From positions 1 to 33,072 of the forward strand of contig CALMFG010000191.1 of assembly GCA_937863465.1 (NCBI GenBank): a stretch of DNA of 33,072 bases, read 5' to 3'. Under the pieces are notes generated by a model, which was not told the origin of the DNA, searched no databases, and saw only the letters and a program-made list of their open reading frames with translations. Source of the DNA: an uncultured Clostridia bacterium (GTDB lineage Bacteria; Bacillota; Clostridia; Christensenellales; CALMFG01). Positions 21,231 to 27,803 of this stretch are shown here, one piece after another. A program made the translations under genes and the position numbers. Numbering within the stretch: position 1 is the stretch's first letter; every line of letters begins with the position of its first letter.

Positions 21231-22013
21231 TTATTCGCCGATTGCGGCCCGCATTTCGCGAATCAGCGCATATCCCGCTTCGGCGCTTTCGTCCAGGAAT
21301 CGGCGCACCAGTGCACTGCCCACGATGACGCCCTCGCCGTATGCGGCCACCTCGGCGGCCTGCGCCGCGTCGGAGATGCCGAAACCCACACAGCGCGGCA
21401 CATCGGTATGCGCTTTAATCTCCTCCAGAAAGCCTTTAAGGCCGCTGTAAACTTTCGCGCGTTCGCCGGTGACGCCGGTGGTGGAAACACAGTAGATAAA
21501 GCCTTCGGCCTTTTCCAAGACAGTCTTCAGGCGGTTCTTGGATGTTCTGGCCACCAGCGTAATCACGTCCAGCGGCAGGTCTCGGGTGACTTGCGTCAGC
21601 TCACCCTGCTCCTCAAACGGCAGGTCGGGGATGATGAGCCCATCGATGCCCGCCGCAACGCAGTCTCTGGCAAAACGCTCAGGCCCGTATTTGAACACGC
21701 TGTTGTAGTACACCAGCAACAGCAGCGGAATATCGGTTTTTTCCCGCGCTTCCTTCACCGCCGCAAACACCGTGTCGGTCATCACACCTTTTTTTAAAGC
21801 CGCCTCGGCGCTCCGCTGAATCACCGGTCCGTCGGCCATGGGGTCCGAGAACGGAACACCCAGTTCGATTAAATCCGCGCCCGCGGCTTCCAGCCCCAGT
21901 ATAGTTTCGGCAATGCTCTGCTCCCCTTGCGCGCCCGGCATAAAGAAAGGAATCAGCGCTTTGCGGTTTCTCGCTTTCAGCGCTTCAAATTTTTCGCTTA
22001 TTCTTGTCTTCAT
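21231..22013 (-). CDS. trpA: tryptophan synthase alpha subunit
   Basis: Protein of 260 aa. The catalytic residues appear as Glu50 ([12 protein letters not shown]) and Asp61 (MADGPVIQ). It cleaves indole-3-glycerol phosphate to indole and glyceraldehyde 3-phosphate, and indole is channelled to TrpB. The N-terminal strand reads IPFFMPG in place of the common IPFITAGDP form. The ATG overlaps the trpB stop by 4 nt, which couples translation of the two subunits of the tetramer. It is the last gene of the operon. Confidence 0.95.
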
Positions 22014-23194
22014 TTCCCTTCCTCCAAATATTCGGCAATCCGCGACACATCCTTGTCGCCGCGTCCCGAAAGATTCACGACCACGACTTCTCCCGGTTTC
22101 AGTTCATCCGCGTGTTTCACGCACCAGGCCAGCGCATGTGCGCTCTCGATGGCCGGAATAATCCCTTCGGTGCGCGTCAGCAGGGCAAACGCCTCCACGG
22201 CTTCATTGTCGGTCACGGCTTCGTAAGTCACCCGTCCGCTGGTCTTTAAGTGCGCGTGCTGGGGCCCGACGCCCGGGTAATCCAGACCGGCCGATATGGA
22301 ATACACCGGCGTAATCTGGCCGAATTCATCCTGCAAAAACAGGCTCTTCATGCCGTGCAGCACGCCGACCGAACCGCAGGTCATGGATGCCGCGTGCTGT
22401 CCGGTCTCGATGCCGAGACCTCCGGCCTCCACACCGACCATGGCCACGTCGTCCTCTAAAAACGGCGCAAACAGACCCATGGCGTTGCTTCCGCCGCCCA
22501 CGCAGGCCACCAGCCTATCCGGCAGTTTTCCTTCGGCTTCCAGCATCTGCGCTTTGGTCTCATCGCCGATAATCCGCTGGAAATCCCGTACCAGCGCGGG
22601 GTATGGGTGCGGCCCCACCACCGAGCCCAGTACATAAAAGGTGTCCTCCACGCGTGCTGTCCATGCGCGGAGCGCCTCGTTGGTCGCGTCCTTCAGCGTA
22701 CCCGTGCCCGAAGCCACCGGCGTCACCGTGGCGCCCAGCATCCGCATACGCGTCACGTTCAGCGATTGGCGCTCAATATCCTCGGTGCCCATAAACACTT
22801 CGCATTCCAGATTAAACAGCGCCGCCGCCGTGGCTGTGGCCACACCGTGCTGTCCCGCGCCGGTTTCGGCAATCACCTTGGTTTTGCCCATGCGCACCGC
22901 CAGCAGTGCCTGACCCAGCACATTGTTGATCTTATGCGAACCGGTGTGGTTTAAATCTTCCCGTTTCAGGTACAGTTTGACGCCGCCCAGCTTTTTTGAA
23001 AGATTCTCGGCATAGTACAGCGGCGTCGGCCGTCCCGAATAGTCTTTCAAAAGCTTCTTATATTCCTTCTGAAATTCGGGCGTGGGCACATAGGTCTGCC
23101 AGGCCTCTTCCAGCACAATCAGCGCGTTCATCAACAGCTCCGGGCAGTACTGCCCGCCGAATTCCCCGTATTTTCGTGAAATCTTCTCGTTCAT
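22010..23194 (-). CDS. trpB: tryptophan synthase beta subunit
   Basis: Protein of 394 aa, the usual TrpB1 length. The PLP lysine Lys88 sits in HTGSHKINN, and the glycine-rich phosphate loop is GGGSNAMG. It condenses indole with L-serine to make L-tryptophan in complex with TrpA. The [12 protein letters not shown] motif with the catalytic glutamate is also present. It overlaps trpF by 4 nt at its start and trpA by 4 nt at its end. Confidence 0.96.
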
Positions 23195-23796
23195 CCGTTT
23201 CTCACCTTTCCAATCAGCCGCGCGACTTTATCTGGGTCTTTATACCCGTCGGTCTCCACCGCGCTGCTCACATCCACCGCCATCGGCGACAGTATCTCAA
23301 TCACTTCTCGTACATTGTTTTCGTCAATCCCGCCCGCCGCAATCAGCGGTGCGTTAAATTTAAAGTCTCCGGCTTTGCGCCAATCGAAGGTCTTGCCCGT
23401 TCCGCCGTGCGCGCTCGCGTCGTATCCGTCCAGCAGGTAGCCTTGAACTTCATATCCGTTGGCGATGGCAAACGTCAACTCGCTTCTCACGCGAAACCCT
23501 TTCCAGACCGGCGTACTGAGCCCCGCACAAAACTCAGGCGTCTCCTCGCCGTGCAGCTGGAGGATATCAAGGCCGCAGGTTTCTTTGGTTTTCAGCAGTT
23601 CTTCGGCGCCCGCGTTGACGAACACCCCGACTGTGATGATTTTGGGGTCGAGTTTTTCAATCATCGCTCTGGCCGCCTCGGGAGTCACCTGCCGTTTGCT
23701 GGGCGCAAACACAAAGCCCACATAGTCGGGCAAAAGCGCATTTGCCCACACCACATCTTCCATTCGTCTAAGCCCGCAAATCTTGATTTTGGTCAT
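23191..23796 (-). CDS. trpF: phosphoribosylanthranilate isomerase
   Basis: Protein of 201 aa with a TIM-barrel fold. The catalytic cysteine is Cys7 in KIKICGLRR, and the general-acid aspartate is in LLDGYDA. The GGTGKTFDW segment is a family hallmark. It performs the third committed step, converting PRA to CdRP. It begins 3 nt after trpC and overlaps trpB by 4 nt. It is shorter than many TrpF proteins by only a few residues, so it appears intact. Confidence 0.94.
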
Positions 23797-23799
23797 GGC

Positions 23800-24570
23800 T
23801 TACGCTCCCCGTAAATCCCGAACGGCTTTCGGAATATTCCCCGCCCGCATCAGCGATTCGCCGATCAGGAGCGCATCCACGCCCGCATCCTTCATCCGTG
23901 CGACGTCGTCCGAAGTAAAAATTCCGCTCTCGCTGACCTTCACTTTCCCGTCGGGAATTTTCGCCGTCAAGGTTTCGGTGACAGCCAGATCCACCGTAAA
24001 ATCGTTGAGATTTCGGTTGTTGATGCCGATGATGTCCACGTTCACATCCAAAACACGCTTTAATTCCTCGGCGTCGTGCACTTCGGTCAGCACATCCATG
24101 CCGAGCTCGGTGGCCAAATCGTATAACTGTTTCATCCGCGCGTTGTCCAGAATCGCCGCAATCAGCAAAATCGCATCCGCACCTAAAAGGTAGCTTTCAT
24201 AAACCTGCCACGGGTCGAAGATAAAATCTTTTCTTAAGACCGGCAGGCGGCTGTTCTGCTTGGCGGTTTTGATGTAGTCCGGGCTTCCGAGGAAAAAGTC
24301 CTGCTCGGTCAGCACCGAAAGCGCCTGAACATCGGCCTTGTCATAGGCCTTGGCGAGGTCTTCCACCGAAAAATCCGGCTTGATGATGCCCTTGGAGGGC
24401 GACGCTTTTTTAATCTCGCCGATAATCGCGATATCGCTGTTTTTCGTCAGCGCCTCTTTAAAGGTGCGCCGAAAGACTTCCGCGCCCTCTTTCATATAGT
24501 CGAGACTGGCCACCTGTTTTAAGGCGTCCAGCCGAATCTTTTTCTTGGCGACGATATCGTCCAGAATCAT
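23800..24570 (-). CDS. trpC: indole-3-glycerol phosphate synthase
   Basis: Protein of 256 aa, a monofunctional TrpC. Visible motifs are IGEIKKASPSKG with catalytic Glu and Lys, LRKDFIFDPWQVYE, and the C-terminal VSESGI and LIGESLMRA phosphate-binding segments. It converts CdRP to indole-3-glycerol phosphate with loss of CO2. It overlaps the trpGD stop by 4 nt (ATGA). TrpC and TrpF are separate here, unlike the Escherichia coli fusion. Confidence 0.95.
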   Translation of the reverse strand: MILDDIVAKKKIRLDALKQVASLDYMKEGAEVFRRTFKEALTKNSDIAIIGEIKKASPSKGIIKPDFSVEDLAKAYDKADVQALSVLTEQDFFLGSPDYIKTAKQNSRLPVLRKDFIFDPWQVYESYLLGADAILLIAAILDNARMKQLYDLATELGMDVLTEVHDAEELKRVLDVNVDIIGINNRNLNDFTVDLAVTETLTAKIPDGKVKVSESGIFTSDDVARMKDAGVDALLIGESLMRAGNIPKAVRDLRGA

Positions 24571-26168
24571 GAAACCGCACCCTGACTGACCTTGCGCATG
24601 GCTTCCAGCGCCGCCTTCGCTTTTCCGCTGGCGAGGATTTCTTTCGCCAATGCCACGCCATCCTGGATGCTGTCGGCCTTGCCCGCAATATACAGTGCCG
24701 CGCCCGCATTGAGGCAGACCAGATTCTGTCGGTCACCCGTCTCGCCGTCCAGAATCGCCTCCACAATCTTGGCGTTGGTTTCGGCGTCCCCGCCCGTGAT
24801 GGCTTCGGGGGCGCAGAGCTTAAACCCGAATTCTTCGGGATCGATGGTGTATTCCTTAATCTCGCCGTTTTCGGTCAGCTCGCAGGCCTTTGTTTTGTCG
24901 CACAGCGTGATTTCGTCCATGCCGTCCATGCCATGCACAATCAGCGCGCGCTTGCTGCCCATGTTCTTCAAAGTTTCGGCAAACATGGTGAGCAGGCTTT
25001 CATCATATACGCCGATGACCTGATATTTGGCATGCGCCGGATTGGTCAGCGGCCCTAAGATGTTGAATATGGTCTTGACGCCCAGTTCTTTTCTAACCGG
25101 CATCACAAACTTCATGGCGCTGTGGTAGACCGGCGCAAACATGAATCCGATGCCCGCTTCCCGGATGCAGGTTTCCACGCCCTCGGGTGGAAGATCCACC
25201 TTCACGCCCAGCGCTTCCAGAACGTCGGCGCTGCCGCATTTGCTGGAAACCGAACGGTTGCCGTGCTTGGCCACCGGCACACCCGCCGCGGCCAGCACAA
25301 AAGCCGAAGCCGTGGAGACATTGAATGTGCCGCCGCCGTCGCCGCCTGTGCCGCAGTTGTCTATCACCGCGTCGCCCGCATGGACGCGCGAAGCCTTGTC
25401 CCGCATCACCAAAGCGCATCCGGTCACTTCGTCCGCTGTTTCGCCTTTGGCGCGCATGGCTGTTAAAAGGCTTGCCATCTGCGCGTGGGTATATTCGCCG
25501 CTCATGATGCCGTTCATCATGGCCGTCGATTGTTCTATGGATAAATCCTCTTTTTTCAACAGTTGTTCCAGATAGGTTTTCATGGTTATCTCTCCTCCGC
25601 TTCCCTTCTCTTCCAGGAATCGTTTCAGTATCTTCTTTCCGTCCGGCGTTAAGATGGATTCCGGGTGGAATTGCAGTCCGAATGTCGGATGGATTTTGTG
25701 GCGCATAGCCATCAGCACACCGTCCTCGGTTTCGGCCAGCGGTTCCAGTGTGTCCGGCAGGGTTTCCATGGCCACGCACAGTGAATGGTACCGTCCGGCT
25801 TCAAAGCGCTCGTCCAAATCCTGCAGCAGGCTCTTTTTTGTGTTCTTTACGGGCCATCGCTTGCCGTGCACAATCTCGGGCGCGTAATCGATGCATCCCC
25901 CAAAAGCCAGCCCCATGGCCTGATGCCCCAGGCAGATGCCCAAAATCGGGATTCTTCCCGACAGAGTGCGGATGAGATCCACACAGATGCCCGCGTCTTC
26001 CGGCCGTCCCGGGCCGGGAGAGATGACGATATGGTCGGGTGCCATGGCGCGTATCTCATCGATGGTGATTTTGTCATTTCGGAAAACCCGGATGTCCGGG
26101 CACATTTCGCCCAAATATTGATACAGGTTATAGGTGAATGAATCGTAGTTGTCGATTAAACAGATCAT
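24567..26168 (-). CDS. trpGD: TrpG-TrpD fusion: anthranilate synthase glutaminase / anthranilate phosphoribosyltransferase
   Basis: Fused protein of 533 aa. Residues 1-190 are the class I glutaminase TrpG, with Cys79 in GICLGHQ and the His/Glu pair in QFHPES; it supplies ammonia to TrpE. Residues 196-533 are TrpD, with DNCGTGGDGGGTFN and KHGNRSVSSKCG binding PRPP and anthranilate. The linker is short (KGSGGEIT). At the junction, Met196 (25583) is preceded by GGAGGAG about 8-10 nt upstream, so free TrpD could also be made from an internal start. The gene overlaps trpE and trpC by 4 nt each. The arrangement resembles enterobacterial TrpGD in domain order. Confidence 0.94.
   Translation of the reverse strand: MICLIDNYDSFTYNLYQYLGEMCPDIRVFRNDKITIDEIRAMAPDHIVISPGPGRPEDAGICVDLIRTLSGRIPILGICLGHQAMGLAFGGCIDYAPEIVHGKRWPVKNTKKSLLQDLDERFEAGRYHSLCVAMETLPDTLEPLAETEDGVLMAMRHKIHPTFGLQFHPESILTPDGKKILKRFLEEKGSGGEITMKTYLEQLLKKEDLSIEQSTAMMNGIMSGEYTHAQMASLLTAMRAKGETADEVTGCALVMRDKASRVHAGDAVIDNCGTGGDGGGTFNVSTASAFVLAAAGVPVAKHGNRSVSSKCGSADVLEALGVKVDLPPEGVETCIREAGIGFMFAPVYHSAMKFVMPVRKELGVKTIFNILGPLTNPAHAKYQVIGVYDESLLTMFAETLKNMGSKRALIVHGMDGMDEITLCDKTKACELTENGEIKEYTIDPEEFGFKLCAPEAITGGDAETNAKIVEAILDGETGDRQNLVCLNAGAALYIAGKADSIQDGVALAKEILASGKAKAALEAMRKVSQGAVS
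25581..25599 (-). promoter_or_regulatory. internal Shine-Dalgarno and ATG at the TrpG/TrpD junction
   Basis: On the minus strand GCGGAGGAG is followed, after a short AT-rich gap, by ATGAAAACC at 25583. This gives a 338-residue protein of the normal TrpD length. The signal is what one would expect of a separate trpD gene, but no stop codon separates it from trpG. Confidence 0.6.
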
Positions 26169-27607
26169 AACGCTTCCACCTCCTCCATCGTGCTGTTTTC
26201 TTCGCCCAGCGCCTTAAACAGCGCGCCCAGCTTGTTGTCGGTCTCCTCGAATTCCTTTTCGGGCACCGAATCGTACACGATACCGGCTCCGGCCTGCGCG
26301 TGCACGCAGTTGTCTTTAAAGAGCAGCGTGCGGATGGTGATGCACACATCCATGTTGCCGCGAAAATCGAAATACCCCACCGCGCCGGCGTACGGCCCGC
26401 GCTTGGTGTTTTCCAGCTCGTCGATAATCTCCATGGCGCGAATTTTGGGCGCGCCCGAAACCGTGCCCGCGGGCAGAACGTGCTTTAACGCATCCACGCC
26501 GTCGATGCCGGATTTCATCTTGCCTTCCACGCGCGAAACAATATGCATCACGTGCGAGAAGTATTCGACATGCATCATCTCTTTCACCGCCACTGTCCCA
26601 AACTCCGAAAGCGCCCCGATGTCGTTGCGGCCCAAATCCACCAGCATGGCGTGTTCGGCGCGTTCCTTCTCGTCGGCCAAAAGCTCTCTGGCCAGCGCTT
26701 CATCCTCGGCCGCGTCCTTGCCCCGCTTACGTGTCCCCGCGATGGGGAAGGTCTCCACCACGCCGTCCGATAGGCGTGTTAAGCACTCGGGCGAAGAGCC
26801 CACGATGTAGTAATCCTTAAAGTCCAGAAAATACATATAGGGCGAAGGATTGACCGAGCGCAGTTTTCGGTAGATGGAAAACGCGTCGGGCGCGGGCGTG
26901 CAGGTGCGGCGGCGCGAGAGCACCACCTGAAAAATGTCGCCTTCTTTGATATATTCTCTCGCTTTGCGTACGTTGTTTTCGTAGGTTTCACGGTTCATGT
27001 TGGCGTAGGTTTTGTACTGTGTGGGGGTCGCCGCTTTTTCGGCAGGCATGGCCGAAGAGAGCACGCGCTTTAACAGCGCGTCCATCTCGGCCGAGATGTC
27101 GGCAATCCGTTCGGCGCTGACGCTGGTTTTGTCGACCAGATAGGAATAGGTCAGACTGTGTTTTAAGTGATCGTAGATGAGCACCTGTTTAAACAGGTAA
27201 ACGTGCATATCGGGGAATCCCATATCATCGGGCGGGATATTCGGCAGTTCCTCCACGTATCGGATGCAGTCGTAGGCGTAAAAACCCGCCACGCCGCCGA
27301 CAAACGGAAAATCGCCCGAAACCTGCTCCACGCGGTAGGCGACCAGCGCCTGCTTGGTGGCGGCAAAGGGATCGGTGCTGGTGACCACGCCCGAAAGCTC
27401 ACCCGAAACGGTCAGCTTGCGGTCGGTGATGGCGATGTGCCCCTCGGGGTTCAGCGCAATCAGACTGTAGCGGCCAAACTGCTCCCCCCGCTCGGCGCTT
27501 TCCAGCAGAAACTGCGCGCCAAAGGGTTTCAGCTTGGCAAAAATCGATATGGGTGTTTCGGTGTCGGCCATCACCGTTTTGATGATGGGCGAAAGAATCG
27601 TTGGCAT
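26165..27607 (-). CDS. trpE: anthranilate synthase component I
   Basis: Protein of 480 aa, full length. The feedback-inhibition motif LLES is at residues 34-37, and the chorismate-binding core shows IAGTRKRG, DLGRNDIG and the VSGAPKIRAMEIIDELE segment. It converts chorismate and ammonia to anthranilate, with the TrpG domain of the next gene. The first ATG (27607) is chosen because GGGAGG lies 8 nt upstream. That Shine-Dalgarno is itself in the 3' arm of a terminator hairpin, so both transcription and translation of trpE may be controlled there. It is the first gene of the trp operon. Confidence 0.95.
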   Translation of the reverse strand: MPTILSPIIKTVMADTETPISIFAKLKPFGAQFLLESAERGEQFGRYSLIALNPEGHIAITDRKLTVSGELSGVVTSTDPFAATKQALVAYRVEQVSGDFPFVGGVAGFYAYDCIRYVEELPNIPPDDMGFPDMHVYLFKQVLIYDHLKHSLTYSYLVDKTSVSAERIADISAEMDALLKRVLSSAMPAEKAATPTQYKTYANMNRETYENNVRKAREYIKEGDIFQVVLSRRRTCTPAPDAFSIYRKLRSVNPSPYMYFLDFKDYYIVGSSPECLTRLSDGVVETFPIAGTRKRGKDAAEDEALARELLADEKERAEHAMLVDLGRNDIGALSEFGTVAVKEMMHVEYFSHVMHIVSRVEGKMKSGIDGVDALKHVLPAGTVSGAPKIRAMEIIDELENTKRGPYAGAVGYFDFRGNMDVCITIRTLLFKDNCVHAQAGAGIVYDSVPEKEFEETDNKLGALFKALGEENSTMEEVEAL

Positions 27608-27608
27608 T

Positions 27609-27641
27609 AAAAAAACCTCCCTTGCAGAAGCAAAGAGAGGT
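27609..27641 (-). terminator. trp leader attenuator hairpin overlapping the trpE RBS
   Basis: On the minus strand ACCTCTCTT pairs with AAGGGAGGT (one G-U pair) around a short loop, and seven Ts follow directly. This is an intrinsic terminator. The ATG of trpE comes two bases later (TTTTTTTAATG), so the GGGAGG Shine-Dalgarno is buried in the stem. Confidence 0.8.
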
Positions 27642-27693
27642 CATGATTGACTGTCGTAATAACGCATCCAAACCAAATAAAAGTGATGGACCG

Positions 27694-27737
27694 CTTTTCT
27701 CTTCTTTTCTCTGCTCGTCTATTTCTAATCTCTTCTG
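27694..27737 (-). promoter_or_regulatory. NAG-triplet array, candidate TRAP-binding site
   Basis: Read on the minus strand, nine triplets CAG, GAG, TAG, TAG, GAG, GAG, AAG, GAG, AAG are separated by 2 or 3 nt throughout. TRAP (MtrB) of Bacillus binds eleven (G/U)AG repeats spaced 2-3 nt and prefers GAG and UAG over AAG and CAG. Position (between promoter and attenuator of trpE) and spacing both fit. TRAP itself is not encoded in this window. Confidence 0.65.
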
Positions 27738-27743
27738 GTGCAG

Positions 27744-27764
27744 TCATCCGTTTCTATCGGATGA
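27744..27764 (-). promoter_or_regulatory. 5' stem-loop of the trp leader
   Basis: TCATCCG and CGGATGA form a perfect 7-bp stem with a 7-nt loop, about 10 nt after the -10 element and just before the triplet array. In Bacillus subtilis a 5' stem-loop in the same place assists TRAP binding. Confidence 0.6.
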
Positions 27765-27773
27765 TTTTCGTGA

Positions 27774-27803
27774 ATTATAGCATACCGCAAGGCGGTCTGT
27801 CAA
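27774..27803 (-). promoter_or_regulatory. trp operon promoter
   Basis: Perfect TTGACA (27798-27803) and perfect TATAAT (27774-27779) with an 18-nt spacer on the minus strand. The spacer contains the inverted repeat ACCGC-AAG-GCGGT. Transcription would start about 165 nt upstream of trpE. Confidence 0.85.

Follow-up and report, generated by a model that had tools for sequence, protein, structure and literature searches.

The trp leader and its operon

The window, by which we mean the whole 33,072-nucleotide stretch of DNA from an uncultured Clostridia bacterium that was analyzed here, carries on its minus strand a trp operon with the gene order trpE-trpGD-trpC-trpF-trpB-trpA downstream of a short leader, the features of which are collected in Table 1. 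The operon is preceded by a promoter that is of the sigma-70 type in a consensus scan, and the transcription start, as read from the minus-strand sequence, falls at approximately position 27768, giving a leader of approximately 161 nt. This leader contains, in order, a 5′ stem-loop, an array of NAG triplets separated by spacers of 2, 2, 3, 2, 2, 2, 2 and 2 nt, with six of the nine triplets being GAG or UAG, and a hairpin whose 3′ arm, GCAAGGGAGG, is followed by U7, a single A, and the trpE ATG at 27607. The preliminary description of this locus had claimed a perfect promoter, a 7-bp 5′ stem-loop, nine triplets with this spacing and composition, a U-tailed hairpin ending at the trpE ATG with the Shine-Dalgarno (SD) sequence inside it, and a leader of about 165 nt. 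All of these hold up: the promoter matches the consensus at 12 of 12 positions with an 18-nt spacer, the stem-loop is recovered by the leader fold, the triplets are an exact match in the sequence, GGGAGG lies in the 3′ arm of the hairpin ahead of U7 and AAUG, and the leader is short.

Table 1. Features of the trp leader and operon in the window (positions are those of the whole stretch)
Feature	Position	Strand	Basis
−35 element TTGACA	27798..27803	minus	consensus scan, 12/12 with the −10 element, 18-nt spacer
−10 element TATAAT, preceded by TG	27774..27779	minus	consensus scan
5′ stem-loop UCAUCCG/CGGAUGA, 7 bp	27744..27764	minus	leader fold
Nine NAG triplets CAG GAG TAG TAG GAG GAG AAG GAG AAG	27694..27737	minus	chain score
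Predicted antiterminator 5′ strand (array stretch pairing with the terminator 5′ arm, ~27629-27639)	27700..27715	minus	pairing probability
Attenuator hairpin GACCUCUCUUUGC-UUCU-GCAAGGGAGGUU, also holding the SD	27614..27642	minus	fold energy, terminator scan
trpE SD GGGAGG in the hairpin 3′ arm	27616..27621	minus	sequence; pairing probability 0.99
U7 tract, shared by the terminator and the SD-to-start spacer	27609..27615	minus	sequence
trpE, anthranilate synthase component I	26165..27607	minus	TIGR00564, over cut-off
trpGD fusion	24567..26168	minus	NF011201, over cut-off
trpC	23800..24570	minus	NF001377, over cut-off
trpF	23191..23796	minus	closest model NF002298, score under its cut-off
trpB	22010..23194	minus	TIGR00263, over cut-off
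trpA	21231..22013	minus	TIGR00262, over cut-off

The chain score of the array is 7.35, against a maximum of 4.3 among 3,000 shuffles (for the 600 nt upstream, 1,000 dinucleotide shuffles; for the 180-nt leader, 2,000 shuffles), none of which scored as well. When the same pattern was scanned for across the organism's own genome, we obtained the trpE leader and one weak, AAG-rich match in trpGD; since a reversed-pattern control also gave one match, the weak one stands at control level, and we rejected it as a further TRAP target. It comprises five AAG/GAG triplets with 2-nt spacers (25590-25612, minus strand) where trpG meets trpD in the fusion; they overlap an internal SD (GGAGGAGAG) and ATG, and are possibly a weak TRAP site or a chance occurrence.

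The hairpin has a folding energy of −16.4 kcal/mol (z −3.8), with none of 200 shuffles as good, and together with the U7 tract it passes a terminator scan. No terminator lies between the array and this SD hairpin; the terminator itself contains the SD.

Two further elements of the leader region are noted here. Between the −35 and −10 elements lies a short inverted repeat, ACCGC-CTT-GCGGT (27796-27784, minus strand), which may be an operator or may be due to chance. We also considered as a leader peptide, and rejected, a frame of 46 codons with one Trp codon and no recognizable SD (27747-27608, minus strand), which starts at an ATG in the 5′ stem-loop and ends at the UAA of UUUUUUUAAUG, overlapping the trpE ATG.

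The TRAP gene and the computed switch

The preliminary description had read the leader as a target of the tryptophan-binding regulator TRAP, and proposed searches for the genes of TRAP (mtrB) and anti-TRAP (rtpA). The TRAP homologue is present in the same genome: its 91-aa MtrB matches PF02081 with an E-value of 4.4e-39, scores over the cut-off of NF009724, and gives an ungapped phmmer alignment with solved TRAP chains through the conserved core. The neighbors of mtrB, as identified from their translations, are pfkA-like and dnaE-like genes. The search for rtpA gave no match to PF15777 in the genome, with a B. subtilis positive control being detected; anti-TRAP is an accessory feature, and is not required for membership of the B. 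subtilis type. Across the wider group, TRAP is encoded by 41 of 396 genomes of the order and by 89 of 391 of the class.

We propose that, at low tryptophan, TRAP would be unbound and the array, rich in purines, would pair with the hairpin's 5′ arm, rich in pyrimidines, to form an antiterminator; the polymerase would then read through and the SD would be open to ribosomes. With ample tryptophan, TRAP would instead wrap the nine triplets and block the pairing of the array, the hairpin would form, and either transcription would end at the U7 tract or the SD would be hidden in those transcripts that escape.

The two structures that this switch calls for are mutually exclusive in silico. In our folding calculations, the pairing between the array and the 5′ arm of the terminator has a mean probability of 0.79 before the 3′ arm is present, and of 0.04 once it is. 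Masking the triplets in the fold, another check that had been proposed, makes the SD harder to open: the energy needed is 0.6 kcal/mol for a free array and 9.8 kcal/mol when the array is held unpaired, as it would be by TRAP. This coupling between array and SD (9.2 kcal/mol) compares with a mean of 2.9 for arrays swapped in from 15 other leaders, none of which reaches the native value. The complementarity that the preliminary description had noted between the triplet region and the 5′ arm of the terminator is thus borne out as a pairing, but it involves mainly AGCAGAGA...AGA (~27715-27700) and not the AAGAGA and CAGAAG segments that had been named, and is in part expected from base composition. 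We note that, once the full 3′ arm is present, the terminator has a computed probability of 0.85 at equilibrium even without TRAP. As the hairpin is thereby favored in the absence of the protein, the switch must act kinetically or with the help of the ribosome, and read-through would have to depend on the antiterminator forming first, perhaps also on early loading of ribosomes.

Leaders of trpE in TRAP-bearing genomes and alternative explanations

We searched for TrpE in the TRAP-bearing genomes and examined 117 non-redundant upstream regions, 58 of which carry a scored array. In these 58 arrays, 404 of the 483 gaps are 2-nt spacers, and arrays with the window's spacing of 2-3 nt, the conservation of which in relatives had been proposed as a check, precede trpE in many relatives that bear TRAP. 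We found no close relative whose leader could be aligned with that of the window to test this particular hairpin for covariation. Most array leaders keep a separate upstream terminator, either together with a paired SD (26 of 58, four of these having a U-run after the SD) or as the terminator only (16 of 58). The others place the array over the SD (7 of 58), have an SD hairpin without an upstream terminator (7 of 58), or have neither a terminator nor a paired SD (2 of 58).

When only leaders that form an SD hairpin are compared, at least five U residues in a row follow the SD in 5 of the 7 that lack an upstream terminator versus 4 of the 26 that have one (Fisher p 0.009), an association that we regard as suggestive, as related species are counted as independent and the cut-offs were chosen during the analysis. 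When U-runs are instead scored within the final 12 nt, p ranges from 0.0001 to 0.007 across eighteen settings. U-runs do not occur in the terminator-only leaders or in those with the array over the SD. Fifty-five leaders were scored as array-free, and the four of these with a U-run, all from a single family (f48), were reassigned to the array group because their split arrays had been missed by the chain score; a U-run following an SD hairpin is then found in 0 of 51 array-free trpE leaders.

These distributions bear on an alternative in which TRAP controls translation only, with the hairpin hiding the SD and the U-run being a spacer that does not terminate. Translation-only designs do exist, in leader L120 and, with the array over the SD, in leaders L104, L110 and L111, and spacers can be U-rich. 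Nevertheless, we consider this explanation unlikely for the window, where a stem of −16 kcal/mol with U7 passes the terminator scan, and given that U-runs are absent from array-free leaders and concentrated where the upstream terminator is missing. Less probable again is an ordinary terminator that overlaps the SD incidentally, with control exerted on transcription alone and the SD rarely hidden in read-through RNA. While the textbook mode of TRAP action is attenuation at a terminator (PMC3913778), the occurrence of an SD hairpin beside a separate terminator in 26 of the 58 TRAP leaders makes SD sequestering look selected, and the pairing probability of the SD in the window's leader is 0.99. 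Finally, control not by TRAP but by a T-box, by a leader peptide or by a repressor that binds the promoter DNA would find a footing in the inverted repeat of the promoter spacer and in the 46-codon open frame that runs through the leader and has one Trp codon, but is highly improbable when the TRAP gene and the array are both present, the window has no Rfam T-box, and the stop of the frame, which has no recognizable SD, is a by-product of UUUUUUUAAUG. The same search, which gave no match in the window to a T-box, a riboswitch aptamer or any other Rfam element, returned T-boxes at six other trpE loci; none of the findings that had been named as refuting TRAP control was obtained, as the genome encodes TRAP, the triplet spacing recurs in relatives, and neither a T-box nor a convincing leader peptide was found in the leader.

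Taking these points into account, the leader is likely a TRAP-dependent trp attenuator in which the intrinsic terminator and the hairpin that sequesters the trpE SD are one and the same element. The elements of the leader, the TRAP gene and the recurrence in relatives are read from sequence and the mutually exclusive folds are computed, while TRAP binding, termination and translational repression are inferred. The idea, already put forward in the preliminary description, that control of transcription and of translation is merged in a single hairpin draws its support from the SD inside the terminator, the TRAP gene, and the recurrence of the arrangement in other TRAP leaders. If it is correct, the choice between antiterminator and hairpin would also set the translation of transcripts that escape termination.

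Relation to known systems and to other lineages

The TRAP gene, the array and the predicted switch place the leader in the TRAP family, and what sets it apart from the B. subtilis type is the merger of two elements into one. It shares with the B. subtilis trp leader a TRAP gene, a NAG array with 2-3 nt spacers, a 5′ stem-loop, an antiterminator that overlaps the terminator, and a structure ahead of trpE that sequesters the SD (PMC3913778, PMC12288461). In B. subtilis, however, the TRAP-controlled terminator spans +108 to +133 in a leader of 203 nt (PMC3913778), and TRAP separately promotes the structure that sequesters the SD, with a second pause assisting (PMC12288461); the terminator is a separate element, and the SD hairpin that comes after it has a pause site to itself, whereas the window has one hairpin at the start codon. 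The leader is also shorter (~161 versus 203 nt) and has nine triplets, six of them GAG/UAG, in place of eleven, and no anti-TRAP was found here.

A terminator that contains the ribosome-binding site (RBS) is already known from riboswitches. In the dual platforms of Barrick and Breaker (2007, PMC2258182), the terminator is near the gene: no more than 10 nt separate its hairpin from the start codon, and the RBS forms part of the hairpin's 3′ side. The hairpin described here likewise ends 6-8 nt before the trpE ATG, with GGGAGG within its 3′ side, but sensing falls to a protein, wrapped by a triplet array, and not to an RNA aptamer. In the open-licence papers searched, we found no TRAP leader described as having its SD within the terminator.

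The B. subtilis trp leader serves as a teaching example, with two TRAP-controlled steps and two hairpins. Merged leaders add a protein sensor to the dual expression platforms known from riboswitches, and make it possible to ask whether one hairpin serves both steps without a second pause. Together with two-hairpin and direct-occlusion leaders, they form a series on how the control of transcription and that of translation are split or fused in evolution, and it is the recurrence of the merger that makes it interesting.

The merged terminator/SD hairpin occurs in about four lineages, namely the window, leader L186, leader L217 and family f48. In f48, a tract of U6-7 between the SD and the start codon is kept in nine species, eight of which have a recognizable split array; the split array, the SD hairpin and U6-7 are conserved, and the sequence between array and hairpin diverges. 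The split arrays of L230, L234, L237 and L243, all from this family, consist of about 4 + 4-5 triplets with a gap of several bases, and in L230 a hairpin interrupts the array. In L217, the upstream hairpin has a folding energy of about −2.3 to −4.2 kcal/mol, compared to about −8 kcal/mol in L118, which is of the same genus and has no U-run after the SD, and L217 thus looks like an intermediate toward the merged design. It is quite possible, though we put it forward tentatively, that TRAP-using Clostridia have undergone this fusion repeatedly, the SD hairpin gaining a U-run and the older upstream terminator decaying, until one hairpin controls both steps.

Other leaders differ from this arrangement in various ways. 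L100 belongs to a different family within the window's order; besides an SD hairpin followed by a U-run, this leader carries a candidate upstream terminator, so that the only trpE leader of the window's kind in the same order may have a second terminator upstream. L120 has an SD hairpin with no U-run and no detected upstream terminator. In L104, L110 and L111, also from the window's order, the array lies directly over the trpE SD and start codon, and thus one order holds at least two TRAP designs for trpE. The TRAP site of B. subtilis trpG also covers the SD directly; trpG and these three leaders use TRAP and NAG arrays as the window does, but there the protein blocks the ribosome and there is no hairpin switch. 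At L101, L102, L106, L107, L123 and L131, a T-box is found near trpE although the genomes encode TRAP, indicating that TRAP is not always used at trpE. In one TRAP-bearing relative (G047), where a search for trpE found nothing, a TRAP-like array (L263:1656-1678, minus strand, contig C251) lies ~50 nt ahead of a gene that resembles trpB (454 aa), which suggests that trpB2 may be under TRAP control in that relative.
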